Source of the DNA: Fervidobacterium gondwanense DSM 13020 | GTDB taxonomy: Bacteria > Thermotogota > Thermotogae > Thermotogales > Fervidobacteriaceae | Assembly: GCF_900143265.1 (NCBI RefSeq) | Contig: NZ_FRDJ01000003.1 | Span: 62,001 to 126,000 of the forward strand | Direction: 5' to 3' | DNA: 64,000 nt | Shown: one piece after another, positions 37,210 through 57,970 of the stretch | Numbering within the stretch: the stretch's first letter is position 1 | Layout: each line of letters begins with the position of its first letter | The notes under the pieces: generated by a model | The model's database searches: none | Seen by the model: only the letters and a program-made list of their open reading frames with translations | Told to the model about the DNA's origin: nothing | Program-made: the position numbers and the translations under genes

Positions 37210-37479
37210 ATGGCAAAAGATATCACTGTAAGAACTGTTATGGCTATTCTTGTTGACAAGAGAGAACAAGCTGCCGTAGAAGTTCAGAAGTTGCTCACAG
37301 AGTACGGCTGCTACATCAAAACGCGTCTTGGACTCCATGAAGGTGCAGGCCAATACTGCTCGCCAGTTGGGCTTATAATCCTTGAACTTGTTGACGATGA
37401 AACAAAACACGAAGAGCTCTGCCAAAAACTCAACGGTATTGATGGTGTGACTGCTAAGTACATGAAGTTAGAAATATAA
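37210..37479 (+). CDS. TM1266-family iron-only hydrogenase system regulator (copy 1)
   Basis: An 89-residue protein of the TM1266/putative iron-only hydrogenase system regulator family, which has an ACT-like, NikR-C-terminal fold. Typical are the start of strand 1 (RTVMAILVDKREQAA), the LGLHEGAGQY stretch and the end GIDGVTAKYMKLEI. GGGGGTGTAG precedes the ATG. It points away from the ABC-hydF operon and towards hydE. Family members travel with hydE/F/G; their mechanism is unknown. Confidence 0.85.
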   Translation: MAKDITVRTVMAILVDKREQAAVEVQKLLTEYGCYIKTRLGLHEGAGQYCSPVGLIILELVDDETKHEELCQKLNGIDGVTAKYMKLEI

Positions 37480-37500: not shown

Positions 37501-37527
37501 AAGGCGGTGATATTCACCGCCTTTTTT
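37501..37527. terminator. Bidirectional terminator between the TM1266-type gene and hydE
   Basis: AAGGCGGTGA-TAT-TCACCGCCTT, a 10-bp stem followed by TTTTA. The hydE stop lies at its far edge, so it probably serves both strands. Confidence 0.88.
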
Positions 37528-38554
37528 ATACAAAGATTTCATCAATTCTCTTCCTGCTTCCGAATCCTTCGCCAACAGTTAAGCCCACACTTTTTATCAT
37601 CGCCTTAGTGCATTCAACGCAAGCTGTGTCTTTTTCAAATAAACATATTTTTCCCGGATACAACGAGTAATTCGGTCTGTACGGATTTGGCGTCAAGTTT
37701 GGCATTATTACATTCGCACCGTACTTGAGTCCGTATTGGCGACCGTAGGGATTTATAGAGCCAAGCGCTGTTGTAGCTGGTATGTTAGCTGTTGGGACTA
37801 CTATACGAGCGAGTGCAACCATTCTCAGTGTTGTTTTCAAATCTCCTCCATTTGCATCTTTGAGCGGTGTGTCGGGATTCGGTATGTATGGTCCTATCCC
37901 TATCATGTCAGCGTCGATTTCTTTCAAGAACGCCAAATCCAAAGCCAAGTCGTAAGGTGTCTGACCAGGTAATCCAACCATGAAGCCTGCGCCAGTTTCG
38001 TAACCAAGTCTTTTTATCTCGTACAAGTGCGCTTTTCTGTTCTCGAACGTGTCACCGGGATGCAATTTTGCGTACAGCTCCGGTGAAGCTGTTTCGTGGC
38101 GCATCAGGTACCTATCAGCACCGAGTTCTTTCCAAATTCTGTATTCTTCAAATGTTCGTTCACCGATGCTGAGTGTTATTGCAACATCAAGTTCTTTGAT
38201 TTGTTTGATGATATCGCACATCATTTCTGTTGTGTAATATGGATCCTCGCCGGATTGCAGTACTACTGTTTTAATTCCCATCTGGGCTATCAACTTAGCG
38301 CGTGCAACAATCTCTTCGACGCTCATTCTGTATCTCGTTAAGTTCTTATTTTCAGCTCTCAAACCGCAATATAGACAGTGTTGAGAGCAGTAATTCGAAA
38401 ATTCTATGATTGCTCTCAAATACACTTCATCACCAACATATTTCCTTCTAATTTCATCTGCAGTCCTGAATATCTCTTCATCGTATTCATCTGTGCTAAT
38501 TATATGCGTCAAATAATCCAAATCAACATTCTGAATCTTCTTTACATCCAACAT
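37526..38554 (-). CDS. hydE: [FeFe]-hydrogenase H-cluster radical SAM maturase HydE
   Basis: A radical-SAM enzyme in the assembly of the [2Fe] subcluster. It is 342 residues, with the cluster motif Cys56-x3-Cys60-x2-Cys63 (CSQHCLYC) followed by a complete TIM barrel. The ATG at 38554 is chosen because GAGGTGA overlaps the earlier GTG at 38563. It is the last gene of a minus-strand run: hydrogenase, TM1266-type protein, hydG, small unknown, hydE. Confidence 0.95.
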   Translation of the reverse strand: MLDVKKIQNVDLDYLTHIISTDEYDEEIFRTADEIRRKYVGDEVYLRAIIEFSNYCSQHCLYCGLRAENKNLTRYRMSVEEIVARAKLIAQMGIKTVVLQSGEDPYYTTEMMCDIIKQIKELDVAITLSIGERTFEEYRIWKELGADRYLMRHETASPELYAKLHPGDTFENRKAHLYEIKRLGYETGAGFMVGLPGQTPYDLALDLAFLKEIDADMIGIGPYIPNPDTPLKDANGGDLKTTLRMVALARIVVPTANIPATTALGSINPYGRQYGLKYGANVIMPNLTPNPYRPNYSLYPGKICLFEKDTACVECTKAMIKSVGLTVGEGFGSRKRIDEIFV

Positions 38555-38574
38555 ATGCTTCACCTCAACGATTT

Positions 38575-38853
38575 TTATTCCTTCAAGTCACTTGATTCGC
38601 TCGGTTCTCTCATTTCCTTTACTCTCTCAATTATCTCTCTAATCAAAACGTATTCATCTTCATCTATTTCCCTCTCAGCGAACATTAGGTACTTTTCATC
38701 CTCATACACGATGAAGCTTTCAGTGTACCGCTCATCTCCAGCTCGGGCTATGCAGGACAAACGTCTGCCTATTTTTTCACATATCCATATTTTTGTATTG
38801 AGCATTGCTGCGTATTGTATTAACATGGAGCTTAACTTCTCAAAATCTGACAT
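38575..38853 (-). CDS. Small unknown protein between hydG and hydE
   Basis: A 92-residue soluble protein that I do not recognise. It starts with MSDFEKLSSMLIQYA, has two mid-protein beta stretches (KIWICEKIG, ERYTESFIVYED) containing two Cys, and ends in a charged helix. The start at 38853 overlaps the end of hydG by 14 bases, and hydE begins 20 bases later, so it is transcribed with both. This makes a role in H-cluster assembly or its regulation plausible; nothing in the sequence proves it. Confidence 0.7.
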   Translation of the reverse strand: MSDFEKLSSMLIQYAAMLNTKIWICEKIGRRLSCIARAGDERYTESFIVYEDEKYLMFAEREIDEDEYVLIREIIERVKEMREPSESSDLKE

Positions 38854-40249
38854 CTCTCTCACCACGGTCGATTCTCTCAAGATACTTCTCAACCATTTCT
38901 CTGCTATTTACTCTTTCCATTTCTTTTCGTATCAATTCATTACCAATTCTCTTGGTTTCTTCCGAGGCATAGTCGTTGAGGTATTCTCTGAGCGTGAACA
39001 GAGCATTTGGCGTGCAGAATCTTTTTACGAAGCCCGGTATTGCAAATTCCATGAAGTGCTCTCCTGTTCTTCCCATTCTGTAACATGCTGTACAGAAAGA
39101 TGGTATATAGCCTTCTTTGAGCAGATCCTGAATAACTTCCTCAAGAGTTCTGTTATCGCCGAGTATAAATTGGCTCTTGCGTATCTTTTCTGGGTCATCT
39201 TGCGAATACGAACCTATTCCTATGCTTGAACCGCCATCGATTTGCGAAACGCCCATTTTTAAAACTTCTTTTCTCAGTTCAGCCGGTTCGCGAGCTGTAA
39301 GAATCATTCCTGTGTATGGTACTGCAAGTCGTATTATAGCAACCAATTTTTTAAAATCTTCGTCGCTGACCTTGTAAGGTGGATGGTATGATATTTCACT
39401 TCCGACAGCAGGTTCTATTCTTGGGAATGATATCGTGTGAGGACCAACGCCGAACCTTTCTTCAAGATGAATTGTATGGTATATCAATCCCATCACTTCG
39501 TACTTCCAGTTGAACAGTCCAAAGAGTGCACCGATGCCTACATCATCTATTCCTGCAAGCATTGCTCTGTCAAGGCCATAAAGCCTCCAAGCGTAGTTGG
39601 ATTTTGGACCTCTTGGGTGCAACTGTCTATATGTTGGCTGATGATAAGTTTCCTGGAATATCTGGAACGTTCCAATTCCAGCATCTTTAATGATCTTGTA
39701 TCCTTCCACAGTCTGTGGTGCTGCGTTAACGTTCACTCTTCTGATCTCACCATTTCCGATTTTCGTGTCGTATATTATGCGTATCGTCTCGGCTATGAAC
39801 TCGGGGCTGTACCTTGGATGTTCGCCGTAAACTACTATCAAGCGCTTGTGTCCTTTTGAGACAAGAGCTTCAACTTCCTTTCTAAGCTCGGAAAATTCGA
39901 GAGTTTTCCTGTACACTTCTGTGTTTGAACTTCTGAATCCGCAGTACACACAGTCGTTGATACAGTCATTTCCTATATAAAGAGGTGCAAAGAGCACTAT
40001 TCTATTCCCGTAAATTCTCTCTTTAAGCGTTCTGGCAGCGTGGAATATTTCTTCTAAGAGTTCAGGTTCTTCAACATTCAATAGCGTTGCGACTTCTTCA
40101 GGTTCTAATCTGTTTTTGTTTAATGATTTTTCCAAAATTTCCATTACGCGCGATCTATCCGGGTTCTTTGTCTGTTCAAGAAGCTCCCATATTTCAGCCT
40201 CTGGAATAAATGTCTTTTCGGTATCGATTTCTTTTGTAAAGACATACAT
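38840..40249 (-). CDS. hydG: [FeFe]-hydrogenase H-cluster radical SAM maturase HydG
   Basis: HydG splits tyrosine to give the CO and CN ligands of the H-cluster. It is 469 residues: the radical-SAM motif Cys96-x3-Cys100-x2-Cys103 (CINDCVYC), the ThiH-like barrel, and the C-terminal auxiliary cluster motif Cys386-x2-Cys389-x22-Cys412 (CTACYRMGRTGEHFME). It follows the second TM1266-type gene by 26 bases and overlaps the small unknown gene. Confidence 0.96.
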   Translation of the reverse strand: MYVFTKEIDTEKTFIPEAEIWELLEQTKNPDRSRVMEILEKSLNKNRLEPEEVATLLNVEEPELLEEIFHAARTLKERIYGNRIVLFAPLYIGNDCINDCVYCGFRSSNTEVYRKTLEFSELRKEVEALVSKGHKRLIVVYGEHPRYSPEFIAETIRIIYDTKIGNGEIRRVNVNAAPQTVEGYKIIKDAGIGTFQIFQETYHQPTYRQLHPRGPKSNYAWRLYGLDRAMLAGIDDVGIGALFGLFNWKYEVMGLIYHTIHLEERFGVGPHTISFPRIEPAVGSEISYHPPYKVSDEDFKKLVAIIRLAVPYTGMILTAREPAELRKEVLKMGVSQIDGGSSIGIGSYSQDDPEKIRKSQFILGDNRTLEEVIQDLLKEGYIPSFCTACYRMGRTGEHFMEFAIPGFVKRFCTPNALFTLREYLNDYASEETKRIGNELIRKEMERVNSREMVEKYLERIDRGERDVRF

Positions 40250-40275: not shown

Positions 40276-40530
40276 TTAAACTGCTATGCTTTTAACCTTT
40301 ACTCCCTTAACATTCCCAAGTTTTCCAGTAAATGCACCAAGGTTATCGTTCGTTGTCTTTACGATAAGAAACACTATTGCTATGTTTTCATCTGGCACAG
40401 GATATCCGACTCTCAGTTTTATTATCTCAGCATATTGGTGGAGCAATTCATTTACTTTTGAGTACGCATTTTCCCTGTCGTGAACGATGATATCGACCGT
40501 GTAATATCTTTCTTCTGCTTTTCCTTCCAC
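40276..40530 (-). CDS. TM1266-family hydrogenase system protein (copy 2)
   Basis: An 84-residue protein with the same ACT-like pattern as the gene at 37210 (strand YYTVDIIVHDRENAYSKV, mid-strand LRVGYPVPDENIAIVFLIV, end GNVKGVKVKSIAV), but clearly diverged. It lies 15 bases after the monomeric hydrogenase gene and 26 before hydG. Two different family members near one hydEG set suggests they are not redundant. Confidence 0.78.
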   Translation of the reverse strand: MEGKAEERYYTVDIIVHDRENAYSKVNELLHQYAEIIKLRVGYPVPDENIAIVFLIVKTTNDNLGAFTGKLGNVKGVKVKSIAV

Positions 40531-40545
40531 TCGGGAAACCTCCTT

Positions 40546-42297
40546 TTAGTCAGCTGTTTTGGATTTTTGCTTTTTTCTCTCTTCTTTCGTTCTGTTTGTA
40601 TAGTGTGTATGCAGATAGTGATGTGCGATATGTCCGTTCGGTTCTCCGACAAACTCTTCGTAGAGCTGTATTATTTCCGGGTTTTCATGTGAACGCCTAA
40701 TGACACTCATTTCGTCGATACTGTATATTGCTTTAGCGCGTTTCTTGACTATATCTGGATCCAAACTCTTAGGCTGGCCTCCACCACCTATACATCCTCC
40801 GAGACAAGCCATAACCTCTACAAAGTCGTAATGTTTCTTTCCTTCCTTTATTTCTTTCAGCAATTTCTTTGCGTTCCCTGTTCCGTTGACGATAGCGACT
40901 CTAACCTTTCTCGTCTTGAAATCGACCTCCGCTTCCCTGATTCCCTCCAAGCCTCTCACTTCGTTGAAAACCAACCTCGGAAGTTTTTCGCCTGTCAACT
41001 TTTCGTACGCGGTCCTCAGCGCAGCCTCCATAACACCACCTGTGACACCGAATATAGCACCTGCACCGGACGAAGCTCCGAGTGGGCTGTCGTGCTTTTC
41101 TTCTGGCAGGTTCACGAATGGAATGTTTTTGAATTTCAGCATCTTGGCAAACTCACGGGTGGTTATCACGTAGTCCGTTACCTTTATCCCATCTACCACG
41201 TGTTGTGCCCTTTCAATTTCGTCCTTCTTTGCTGTGCAAGGCATAACTGCTACCATAACTATATCCTCAGGTTTTACGTTAATCTTTTTTGCAAAATACT
41301 CACGAGTACTGCTCATAATCTGCATGGGGGATTTTGTAGTTGATAGATTGGGTATAAATTCTGGGAACTCCTTCTCAACCATATTTACCCAACCGGGGCA
41401 GCAGCTTGTAAACATTGGCAATGTACCGCCATTTTTGAGTCTTCCAATAAGTTCGTGTGCCTCTTCCATTATTGTCAAGTCAGCACCGAAATTTGTGTCA
41501 AATACATAATCAAATCCAAGCTTTCTAAGTGCTGCTACCATCTTTCCGGTGCTTACAGTGCCGGGTTCCATACCGAATTCTTCACCAATTGCCACACGAA
41601 CAGAAGGCGCTGTTTGAGCGATGAAAACTTTTCCATTCTTATTTTCAAGCATCTTAATTAGCTTCTTCCACGTAGGAGTTTCGTATATCGCACCTACAGG
41701 ACATAGATATGCACACTGTCCGCAGCTAATACAATTCGTCTCGTAGACTGGAACACCAAATTCAGTCTCTGGAATCGTCTCGTATCCACGTTCAATCATC
41801 GAATAAATGTTCATACCCTGTATTTCACTACATACACGCACGCATCGTTGGCACTTGATACATTTCTTCAGATCGCGATTTATCGAAGGACTGCTTGTAT
41901 CGATATATTTTGGAAAACTCACAGGTGTACCGAAAATCGGCTGGATGTCATAGTAGTGAATGAGGTTCTGAAGTTCACATTTCCCGTCTGCTTCGCAGTA
42001 CATACACTCATGCGGATGGTTTGCCATTATCAAATTCAAATTGAATCTCACCGCTTGCTCTACTCTTTCAGTGTTTGTCCAAATCTTCATTCCGTCAGAG
42101 ACCTTTGTTGTACATGCTGGTTGGAGTGTCTTTGCACCTTCAATTTCAACGACGCATATACGACAAGCTCCGATAGGCTCAAGTTCTGGATGATGACATA
42201 GAGTTGGTATTTTATATCCAAACTGTGCAGCAGCTTCTAAAACAGTCTTATTTTCATCAACTTCGTAAGGTTTGTTGTTAATATATATCTTTACCAC
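40546..42297 (-). CDS. Monomeric [FeFe]-hydrogenase, CpI-like (copy B, attenuator-controlled)
   Basis: A 583-residue catalytic hydrogenase with the domain order of Clostridium pasteurianum CpI: ferredoxin-like [2Fe-2S] domain (CHHPELEPIGACRICVV), His-Cys cluster HPHECMYCEADGKC, two [4Fe-4S] motifs (CIKCQRCVRVC, CISCGQCAYLC), and the H-domain with TSCCPGW, MPCTAKKDE and [14 protein letters not shown]. There is no C-terminal thioredoxin domain, so it probably accepts electrons from ferredoxin. The GTG at 42297 after GGGAGGTGG gives the same N-terminus as its tandem copy; the open frame further up is in the leader. Its 5' leader carries a terminator-antiterminator (42345-42540). Confidence 0.93.
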   Translation of the reverse strand: MVKIYINNKPYEVDENKTVLEAAAQFGYKIPTLCHHPELEPIGACRICVVEIEGAKTLQPACTTKVSDGMKIWTNTERVEQAVRFNLNLIMANHPHECMYCEADGKCELQNLIHYYDIQPIFGTPVSFPKYIDTSSPSINRDLKKCIKCQRCVRVCSEIQGMNIYSMIERGYETIPETEFGVPVYETNCISCGQCAYLCPVGAIYETPTWKKLIKMLENKNGKVFIAQTAPSVRVAIGEEFGMEPGTVSTGKMVAALRKLGFDYVFDTNFGADLTIMEEAHELIGRLKNGGTLPMFTSCCPGWVNMVEKEFPEFIPNLSTTKSPMQIMSSTREYFAKKINVKPEDIVMVAVMPCTAKKDEIERAQHVVDGIKVTDYVITTREFAKMLKFKNIPFVNLPEEKHDSPLGASSGAGAIFGVTGGVMEAALRTAYEKLTGEKLPRLVFNEVRGLEGIREAEVDFKTRKVRVAIVNGTGNAKKLLKEIKEGKKHYDFVEVMACLGGCIGGGGQPKSLDPDIVKKRAKAIYSIDEMSVIRRSHENPEIIQLYEEFVGEPNGHIAHHYLHTHYTNRTKEERKKQKSKTAD

Positions 42298-42344
42298 AGC
42301 CACCACCTCCCAATTTCCTCCTAGTTTTCGCAAAATAAACAAAA

Positions 42345-42376
42345 ATCCCTCTCTCCTTTTCCAAGGAAAGAGGGAT
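42345..42376 (-). terminator. Conditional terminator inside the hydrogenase B leader
   Basis: In transcript sense, ATCCCTCTTTCCTT pairs with AAGGAGAGAGGGAT over 14 positions (one G-U) with a four-base loop, followed by TTTTTGTTTATTTTG. It lies only about 50 bases before the ribosome site of the gene, so it must be conditional. Confidence 0.85.
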
Positions 42377-42540
42377 AGTATTCAATGTAAAGACAAAATC
42401 TAAAAAGGCAAAGTTGAAGCTCTAAGAAGGAATAGCCTAATTAGATGTACTTTCCACAACTTTATCAATCCCTCTTTCCTTGGTGTCAGATCGCATCCTC
42501 CACCTCAGAAAGCGCAAATAAGCGAAATTATTCACATGTC
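42377..42540 (-). promoter_or_regulatory. Structured 5' leader of hydrogenase B, candidate riboswitch or attenuator
   Basis: The 16-base segment CCAAGGAAAGAGGGAT (transcript sense, 42483-42468) is exactly complementary to the terminator's first arm and 4 loop bases (42376-42361). Pairing of the two would prevent the terminator. Between them are 91 bases holding a 7-bp helix AAAGTTG/CAACTTT around a branched loop. Upstream is a purine-rich part (GAGGTGGAGGATGCGA). It matches no riboswitch class I know; lysine and SAM-I leaders share a short purine stretch only. Confidence 0.72.
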
Positions 42541-42546
42541 AATTGT

Positions 42547-42576
42547 ATTATACCATATTCGGTTTTAAAATTGCAA
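42547..42576 (-). promoter_or_regulatory. Promoter of hydrogenase B
   Basis: On the minus strand TTGCAA (42576-42571) and TATAAT (42552-42547) are 18 bases apart. Transcription should start near 42540, giving a leader of about 240 bases. Confidence 0.75.
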
Positions 42577-42664: not shown

Positions 42665-42696
42665 TACAAAAAAGTGCCCCTGAGTTAGGGGCACTT
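42665..42696 (-). terminator. Terminator of hydrogenase A
   Basis: AAGTGCCCC and GGGGCACTT flank a seven-base loop; on the minus strand the stem is followed by TTTTGTATG. It separates the tandem hydrogenase genes into two transcripts. Confidence 0.88.
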
Positions 42697-42710: not shown

Positions 42711-44471
42711 TTAATTAACACTTTCAGTTTGCTTTGCGGCTTTTCTGACAGCTTTTGACCTGTTAGTGTAATGCGTGTGCAACAAGTGGTGAGCGATGTG
42801 GCTATTTGGTTTTTCAAGGAAGTCTTCGTAAAGTTTTATGATATCCGGGTTCTCGTGAGACCTTCTTAACACGCTTAGTTCGTCGATGCTGTAGATAGCG
42901 CTTGCTCTCTTCTTGAGTATATCTGGATCGAGGTTCTTTGGCTGTCCACCGCCACCGATACAACCGCCGTAACATGCCATGATTTCGACAAAGTCGTAGT
43001 ATCTTTTTCCTTCTTTCATTTCTTTAAGCAACTTCTTGACATTTGCCATTCCGTGCGCTATAGCTACTCTCAACTTTTTACCTTTAATATCGATCTCGGC
43101 TTCCCTAACACCGTCCAAACCTCTGACGCTGTCGAAGACAAGTTTTGGCAACTTTTCGCCTGTTATCACTTCGTACGCTGTTCTCAGTGCGGCCTCCATA
43201 ACACCACCGGTTACACCGAAGAGCGCAGCAGCACCTGTTGATGTTCCAAGTGGGTTATCGTATTCTTCTTCTGGCAAATTCACAAATGGTATTCCCTTGA
43301 GCTTGACAAGTTTACCGAGTTCACGGGTTGTGATAACGTAATCTGTTACCTTTATGCCATCTACGAGTTGTTGCGGTCTGGTAATTTCATCCTTTTTAGC
43401 TGTACACGGCATTACCGAGACCATAACGATATCTTCTGGTTTCACACCTATCTTCTGTGCGAAGTACGTCTTTACAATGCTGCTCATCATCTGCTGTGGT
43501 GATTTTGCTGTTGACAAGTTCTCCGTAAGTTCGGGCCATTCTTTTTCCATTTCGTTTACCCAACCTGGGCAGCAGCTTGTGAACATTGGGAATTTGCCAC
43601 TATTTTGCAGCCTGTGGATTAGTTCGTAACCTTCTTCCATAATCGTCAAGTCAGCAGCGAAGTTCGTATCAAATACGTAGTCGAATCCGAGTCTTCTGAG
43701 TGCTGCAACCATCTTTCCTGTGCTCACAGTTCCCGGTTCCATGCCAAACTCTTCACCGATTGCAACCCTGACTGATGGAGCTGTTTGTGCCACATATACT
43801 TTGCCCGGCTCTTTGCTGTTCAACATCTTAAGCACTTTTTTCCAATCTGGCGCTTCGTAGATAGCTCCGACAGGACACAGGTATGCACACTGTCCACAGC
43901 TTATACAATTCGTTTCGTAAACGGGTACTCCGAATTCTGTTTCTGGTAGTGATTCGTATCCACGCTCAATCATGGAGTAGATGTTCATTCCCTGAATTTC
44001 ACTACACACACGGACACATCTTTGGCATTTGATACATTTTGAGAGCTCCCTGTTTATTGACGGACTGCTGACATCTATTTCTTTATCAAGATCAACATTT
44101 ACACCAAATATTGGTTGAATGTCATAAATGTGTACGAGTTTCTGGAGTTCACATCTACCATCAGCTTCACAGTACATACACTCGTGTGGATGGTTTGCCA
44201 TGATGAGCGAGAGGTTGAACTTGACTGCACTCTCCACTCTTTCGGTGTTTGTCTTTATTTTCATCCCATCTGCAACTTTTGTGGTACACGCTGGCTGAAG
44301 CGTTCTTGCACCTTCGATTTCAACAACGCAGATTCTACAGGCTCCGATTGGTTCGAGTTCAGGGTGATGACAGAGTGTAGGAATCTTGTATCCAAGCTCT
44401 GCTGCAGCTTCAAGGACTGTTTTGTTTTCTTGCACTTCGTAAGGCTTGTCGTTGATATAAATCGTTACCAT
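42711..44471 (-). CDS. Monomeric [FeFe]-hydrogenase, CpI-like (copy A)
   Basis: A 586-residue tandem paralogue of the gene at 40546, alike over the whole length (well over 70 percent by eye). It has the same cluster motifs: CHHPELEPIGAC, HPHECMYCEADGRC, CIKCQRCVRVC, CISCGQCAYLC, TSCCPGW, MPCTAKKDE and [14 protein letters not shown]. The C-terminal HTHYTNRS segment is shared too. It has its own promoter (44520-44548) and a short plain leader, unlike copy B. Probably a ferredoxin-dependent H2-evolving enzyme. Confidence 0.94.
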   Translation of the reverse strand: MVTIYINDKPYEVQENKTVLEAAAELGYKIPTLCHHPELEPIGACRICVVEIEGARTLQPACTTKVADGMKIKTNTERVESAVKFNLSLIMANHPHECMYCEADGRCELQKLVHIYDIQPIFGVNVDLDKEIDVSSPSINRELSKCIKCQRCVRVCSEIQGMNIYSMIERGYESLPETEFGVPVYETNCISCGQCAYLCPVGAIYEAPDWKKVLKMLNSKEPGKVYVAQTAPSVRVAIGEEFGMEPGTVSTGKMVAALRRLGFDYVFDTNFAADLTIMEEGYELIHRLQNSGKFPMFTSCCPGWVNEMEKEWPELTENLSTAKSPQQMMSSIVKTYFAQKIGVKPEDIVMVSVMPCTAKKDEITRPQQLVDGIKVTDYVITTRELGKLVKLKGIPFVNLPEEEYDNPLGTSTGAAALFGVTGGVMEAALRTAYEVITGEKLPKLVFDSVRGLDGVREAEIDIKGKKLRVAIAHGMANVKKLLKEMKEGKRYYDFVEIMACYGGCIGGGGQPKNLDPDILKKRASAIYSIDELSVLRRSHENPDIIKLYEDFLEKPNSHIAHHLLHTHYTNRSKAVRKAAKQTESVN

Positions 44472-57724: not shown

Positions 57725-57761
57725 ATTAGTGAAAAATCATACTGAATCTAAATATCCCCTA

Positions 57762-57926
57762 CCTTAGAGGTGCGAAAGCTTAAAAGGGAACACCGGTGCG
57801 AATCCGGGACGGTCGGGCCACCGTGAGTGGGGACGAAACCTGCACAATGCCACTGGCTAATTCTCAAAAGGCTGGGAAGGCGCAGGGAGTAGGATGATCC
57901 GCAAGTCGGGAGACCTGCCTTTAAGG
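57762..57926 (+). promoter_or_regulatory. Cobalamin riboswitch
   Basis: The aptamer shows the family core: GGGAACACCGGTGCGAATCC, then GCCACTGG, GGGAAGGCGC, a GATGATCCGCAAGTC segment and GGAGACCTGCC. The closing helix P1 is CCTTAGAGG/CCTTTAAGG, nine pairs. It is followed directly by a terminator, so B12 binding should stop transcription. Confidence 0.93.
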
Positions 57927-57934
57927 GATGGGCG

Positions 57935-57970
57935 CCCCAAAAACCACAGATTTTTGGGGTATTTTTCTTT
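57935..57970 (+). terminator. Terminator of the cobalamin riboswitch
   Basis: CCCCAAAAA-CCACAGA-TTTTTGGGG followed by TATTTTTCTTT; it lies just before the ribosome site of the SucC-like gene. Confidence 0.88.

Follow-up and report, generated by a model that had tools for sequence, protein, structure and literature searches.

Genes and leader at the locus

The window (the whole stretch of 64,000 nucleotides of Fervidobacterium gondwanense DSM 13020 that was analysed) carries on its minus strand the operon hydA-tm1266-hydG-orf-hydE, which is served by a single leader. The first gene, hydA (40546–42342 as the longest reading frame, with TTG at 42342), encodes an [FeFe]-hydrogenase of group A6, and its true start probably lies downstream of the leader terminator, near 42300. 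It is followed by a tm1266 homologue (40276–40530) for an 84-aa ACT-like protein of the family named 'iron-only hydrogenase system putative regulator' (TIGR03959, 103.3 bits, above the curated cut-off of 60.8; PDB 2nzc, E 2.9e-28), which is a candidate binder of the RNA hairpin described below. The genes for the radical-SAM H-cluster maturases HydG (38840–40249, TIGR03955) and HydE (37526–38563, TIGR03956) flank a small ORF (38575–38892) to which the reading-frame list and profile search assigned no family. Another hydA copy lies in tandem upstream (42711–44471, minus strand), set apart from the operon by a strong intrinsic terminator between the two genes (42672–42696, minus strand). Group A6 hydrogenases are usually multi-subunit enzymes; since the two HydA copies both fall, by score, into this NADH-dependent group, the label 'monomeric' given in the initial annotation is doubtful. 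The window also holds a second ACT-like paralogue, of the CPF_0552 family (113 bits; 37210–37479, plus strand), which is convergent with hydE and recurs as a weak TM1266-like second match in most Thermotogota genomes, and a cobalamin riboswitch (106 bits; 57751–57936, plus strand).

Upstream of the operon, a sigma-70-like promoter (42547–42576, minus strand) combines a −35 element TTGCAA, an 18-nt spacer and an extended −10 element TATAAT preceded by TG, with 10 of 12 consensus positions; from its end at 42547 we infer a transcript start near 42540. A palindrome-like sequence, ACATGTGAATAnTTTCnC (42526–42545, minus strand), sits at this start and is conserved in most copies of the Fervidobacterium group. 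It partially resembles the Rex consensus TTGTGAANNNNTTCACAA (PMC6391272), yet gave no match within 3 mismatches. A Rex operator was rejected as the whole explanation of the locus, the best Rex-like site near the promoter having 3 mismatches and being no better than chance.

Three segments of the leader (all minus strand) can pair in two mutually exclusive ways upstream of hydA, as first read from the sequence and now confirmed pair by pair. Segment 1 (CCAAGGAAAGAGGGAU, 42468–42483), the 5′ arm of the antiterminator, forms 16 consecutive Watson–Crick pairs with segment 2 (AUCCCUCUUUCCUUGG), that is, 42483–42468 with 42376–42361. Alternatively, segment 2 pairs with segment 3 (AAGGAGAGAGGGAU, 42345–42358) in a terminator of 14 pairs (42376–42363 with 42358–42345) with a 4-nt loop and a following T run, which the terminator scan also found. 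The leader fold was more stable than 200 of 200 dinucleotide shuffles, with z = −3.9 for the full leader and −4.6 for a leader ended before the terminator arm. Among relatives, segment 1 was complementary to a downstream segment 2 beyond 200 of 200 shuffles at 54 of 67 loci, with a mean z of −4.7. Terminators were found at 51 of the 67, a count that misses several loci because T runs overlapping the start codon are cut off by the scan. Since relatives keep the arrangement and this complementarity exceeds that of shuffles, the three-segment arrangement is real and beyond chance. Lack of conservation of the arms in relatives had been named as an observation that would speak against a switch, and the opposite was found.

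The 91 nt between the antiterminator arms (42377–42467, minus strand) had been regarded as room for a ligand-binding domain. This spacer spans about 6 to about 100 nt among relatives and is therefore not the sensor; neither its length nor its sequence is conserved, so that an aptamer in this insert was rejected. The conserved part of the leader is found at 42512–42474 instead.

A conserved sensor hairpin

A DNA search in the family located a block of strong conservation in the leader at 42512–42471, outside the inter-arm region. It contains a hairpin of 39 nt (42474–42512, minus strand), CUUUCU-GA-GGUG-GA-GGAU-GCG-AUCU-GA-CACC-AA-GGAAAG, whose 3′ strand is part of segment 1, and which we regard as sensor and anti-antiterminator on the basis of covariation, distribution and symmetry. 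In aligned copies the lower half consists of the stem CUUUCU/GGAAAG, a 2x2 internal loop GA/AA and the 4-bp stem GGUG/CACC, while in the upper half another 2x2 loop, (A or G)A/GA, leads to a stem that a G-U pair closes. Compensatory (double) changes occurred at 7 of 15 pairs in a plain MAFFT alignment of 13 sequences, and at 9 of 15 pairs in an alignment of 70 distinct sequences, the counts of which lean towards the structure because it was fitted to the structure of the model. In the larger alignment 93.8% of cells pair; shuffles reach 84.4% and slid controls no more than 63%, and the covariation score was equalled by none of 500 shuffles. The internal loops are nearly invariant and flanked by covarying stems. 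The core is pseudo-palindromic with two-fold symmetry, reading CUGA-NNNN-RAGG on strand 1 and, in most copies, also on strand 2.

The hairpin is a conserved, structured sensor with compensatory changes, as looked for in a riboswitch, but neither hairpin nor leader matched any Rfam 15 family at or above its curated gathering score in the window, in 10 Thermotogota loci or in 19 other loci. The objection that the leader might belong to a known class therefore falls. The original description of a terminator/antiterminator layout typical of a riboswitch or protein-controlled attenuator, with no assignable core, was right in that the switch is real and fits no Rfam class, and wrong about the position of the sensor. 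That this RNA exists as a cis-regulatory element is practically certain, and its class appears to be new.

Regulatory platforms and predicted folding

Most loci use the terminator platform. At 8 loci, which come from a different family in the same class, no attenuator is present; here the RAGGA of the hairpin is itself the Shine–Dalgarno sequence (SD), located inside the 3′ strand 6–16 nt before the start codon. A third platform occurs outside Thermotogota in G138, where both segment 1 and the SD are possible pairing partners of segment 2. Since hairpin formation permits the terminator or buries the SD, the closed hairpin should, judging from this anatomy, represent the OFF state in all three platforms.

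Sequence and energy checks of the leader and its relatives found three mutually exclusive hairpins, as in PyrR-like attenuators. As long as the transcript in the window lacks segment 3, the antiterminator is predicted to be favoured over the hairpin (−56.1 versus −44.4 kcal/mol), whereas the full transcript appears poised at 37 °C (hairpin plus terminator −63.1, antiterminator −58.4 kcal/mol) and nearly balanced at 65 °C (−22.3 versus −22.2), all of these being model values at the edge of their range.

Distribution and genomic partners

Model R1 gave 78 matches in 62 of 103 Thermotogota genomes, 75 of them directly upstream of maturation genes or of a hydA leading that operon (tm1266-hydG-hydE, hydF, hydG, hydE or hydA). 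Several genomes have two copies, one at the tm1266 or hydG operon and one at an unlinked hydF. Three weak R1 matches (G036:C78, G096:C75 and G088:C50) had no detected hyd gene downstream; G036:C78 follows a hydA, and no hyd gene was found downstream of it in the stretch. Weak matches of model R2 in G102, G069 and G070 were located inside unrelated coding genes and were discarded. The source genome has one R1 match in total, and its upstream hydA paralogue lacks the hairpin, in agreement with the early observation that the tandem copy has no switch. It does not follow that the switch is private to one hydrogenase, as had been suggested. A second hydA stands between hairpin and tm1266 in G000, G002 and G004, where it leads the operon, while in G001, G003 and G005 the hairpin directly precedes tm1266 and only the upstream hydA is present. 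Since the second hydA intervenes in the former genomes only, the switch is that of the maturation operon. No hydA intervenes in most relatives, whose hairpin stands before tm1266-hydG-hydE or hydF.

HydG was detected in 70 Thermotogota genomes and TM1266, above cut-off, in 67; all 62 genomes with the R1 motif have both. With model R2 the hairpin was found in 64 of 65 genomes that have HydG and TM1266, and in none of the 5 that have HydG without TM1266 (Fisher p 5e-7, uncorrected for descent), a contrast that rests on one genus, g34, and probably on one loss. Model R2 also recovered the hairpin upstream of HydG in G038 and G101, and neither model did so in G023, which has both proteins. All five genomes without TM1266 (G066–G070) belong to g34 and keep hydG with neither tm1266 nor hairpin, the region upstream of hydG in G066 included, while the sister species G071 has both; this genus offers a natural test of the partnership. 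TM1266 co-occurs with the hairpin and is encoded beside it at most loci. In G027–G030 it is located apart from the hairpin, and action in trans would therefore be needed there. In these genomes (L091, L092, L095, L100) the hairpin with its SD is followed by a mini-ORF, then by a stem resembling a terminator and a box similar to TTGTGAAAATTATAAC, and finally by hydG; perhaps this arrangement is the relic of a tm1266 that has moved.

Model R2, trained on Thermotogota only, also matched outside this phylum, upstream of TM1266 in G138 and G220. For 28 mostly non-Thermotogota TM1266 loci, 9 of 15 R2 matches (E <= 10) fell within 350 nt upstream of the gene on the same strand (p 3e-10). All 7 matches in the phylum of G220 lie directly upstream of TM1266. 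The phylum of G147 gave matches in 9 of 82 genomes, all among the 20 that have TM1266 (p 6e-7, likewise uncorrected for descent), and with filters off the hairpin appeared about 25–40 nt upstream of the TM1266 match at 13 of 20 TM1266 genes; at 9 of these 13 loci the flanking sequence retrieved, in some cases a short one, gave no HydG match. One match in this phylum, G853:C78 (L375), lies beside neither TM1266 nor any hyd gene and was set aside. In the phylum of G266 the element upstream of TM1266 is weak or unrecognisable with these models; the ten best matches in 40 TM1266 loci all share the strand of TM1266 and lie no further than about 110 nt before it, although several are short and partial. 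The loci of this phylum (L327–L366) show a recurrent CUGAUCCAGAGG at the tm1266 Shine–Dalgarno sequence, which reuses the CUGA/AGG module; the switch probably persists there in a diverged form. Relatives of the hairpin precede iron-hydrogenase assembly genes across several phyla, most constantly tm1266, even where no hydG is adjacent.

Proposed control by TM1266

With fair confidence, we favour attenuation under protein control: by binding the hairpin, the ACT-like TM1266 would repress the operon that encodes it as well as other maturation genes. Co-occurrence and gene neighbourhood point, with the same fair degree of confidence, to TM1266 as the direct binder, and the two-fold symmetry of the hairpin core suits a symmetric protein. 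To our knowledge, ACT-like proteins are not established RNA binders. 

The proposed mechanism is a three-state attenuator. The 39-nt hairpin would form first, while RNA polymerase is moving away from the promoter. Unless something holds it closed, it would be invaded by segment 2, which would pair with segment 1, and the resulting antiterminator would block the terminator so that the hydA-tm1266-hydG-hydE operon is read. If a factor keeps the hairpin closed, segments 2 and 3 would be free to pair and transcription would stop before hydA. This factor is most likely TM1266, which as a symmetric oligomer could occupy the two CUGA/RAGG internal-loop modules and which a ligand bound to its ACT-like domain may gate. 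The outcome would be a negative feedback on the operon of TM1266 itself and on unlinked maturation genes with the same hairpin (hydF).

A riboswitch for a small molecule or metal ion is the strongest alternative, though unlikely by comparison. The hairpin with its two GA/AA internal loops would then be the aptamer that shuts off the maturation genes, with iron, a HydG or HydE product, SAM-derived compounds or a redox cofactor as candidate ligands, and tm1266 would be merely one of the regulated genes. The genetic logic is the same, both usual platforms (terminator and SD burial) are present, the loops are nearly invariant between covarying stems, and the hairpin stands upstream of unlinked genes of one pathway. 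However, it follows tm1266 rather than the maturases, as at the loci with no HydG detected in the flank, and is missing from HydG genomes that lack TM1266; a symmetric rod of 39 nt is also small and plain for an aptamer and matches no Rfam class. We rank binding by TM1266 above a riboswitch because the constant neighbour is TM1266 and not the maturases. The same pattern makes it improbable that another protein, be it HydF, HydG, HydE or an unlinked RNA-binding protein, reports the maturation status by binding the hairpin. Such a protein would fit a regulon made up of the H-cluster assembly pathway and the presence of HydG in every motif-bearing Thermotogota genome, but not the absence of the hairpin where HydG occurs without TM1266, nor the constancy of TM1266 as the neighbour outside Thermotogota.

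Two further explanations fare worse still. A 19-codon ORF (42496–42437, MRSDTKERGIDKVVESTSN) with an SD-like GAGGTGGAGG covers arm 1 in the window, and the position of a ribosome on it might decide between the folds. Such leader-peptide attenuation is largely refuted and very improbable, since the ORF is not conserved: closely related genomes have the switch but not the ATG (e.g. GGTGAAGGAGCGAATTGCTCTGACACC in G002 and G004), and the SD-like sequence belongs to the hairpin core as its conserved strand. A plain intrinsic terminator, constitutive and preceded by a chance repeat, could account for segments 1 and 3 being near-copies, as from a duplication, but it is refuted by the conservation of arrangement and complementarity at >50 loci despite changed sequences and by the covariation of the hairpin, and can be dismissed almost entirely.

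Relation to known systems and significance

In PyrR-controlled attenuation the binding protein is encoded in the regulated operon, and its hairpin, antiterminator and terminator exclude each other. The pyr attenuators of Bacillus and relatives (RF00515), with their protein-binding anti-antiterminator, are alike in this layout. Unlike them, the window leader belongs to another pathway, reaches at best 19.8 bits against a gathering score of 54, shows no PyrR-type binding loop, and has an 84-aa ACT-like protein as candidate binder. Leaders of ribosomal-protein genes (such as L10 and L20) also place an RNA structure directly before the gene of the presumed binder and act by SD burial or attenuation, but the genes behind our hairpin are hydrogenase maturases, and we know of no rRNA site that it mimics. 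Transcriptional OFF riboswitches and orphan candidates share the sensor overlapping an antiterminator arm and the lineage-dependent terminator and SD platforms; the hairpin differs from them in following tm1266 more closely than the pathway genes, in its very small size and symmetry, and in its absence from Rfam 15.

The literature searched gave neither a mode of action nor an RNA target for TM1266, and described no RNA element at the genes for hyd maturation. TM1266 together with hydrogenase appeared in one genome note, and riboswitch together with maturase names in a genome paper only. Under CO2, the TM1266 homologue of T. neapolitana was up 6.0-fold, HydG 6.4-fold and HydE 7.5-fold, compared to 1.3-fold for HydF and 1.8-fold for the hydrogenase alpha subunit (PMC7039931), which shows the operon to be regulated. 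Hydrogenase is unmentioned in the main text of three large surveys for noncoding RNA (PMC8632094, PMC11109978, PMC6429828).

It is poorly understood how bacteria adjust their supply of H-cluster assembly enzymes to the demand for hydrogenase. With the hairpin, the 'putative regulator' TM1266 gains a specific candidate RNA target and a predicted OFF switch. In our judgement there is an even chance that TM1266 founds a new family of regulators that have an ACT-like fold and bind RNA. It would sense a metabolite or metal of maturation, bind the two-fold symmetric hairpin and, in several bacterial phyla, govern the assembly of [FeFe]-hydrogenase through attenuation or burial of the SD. If the proposed control by TM1266 is right, an apparently new class of cis-regulatory RNA would be added, a widespread protein family would gain a function, and there would be a handle on biohydrogen production.
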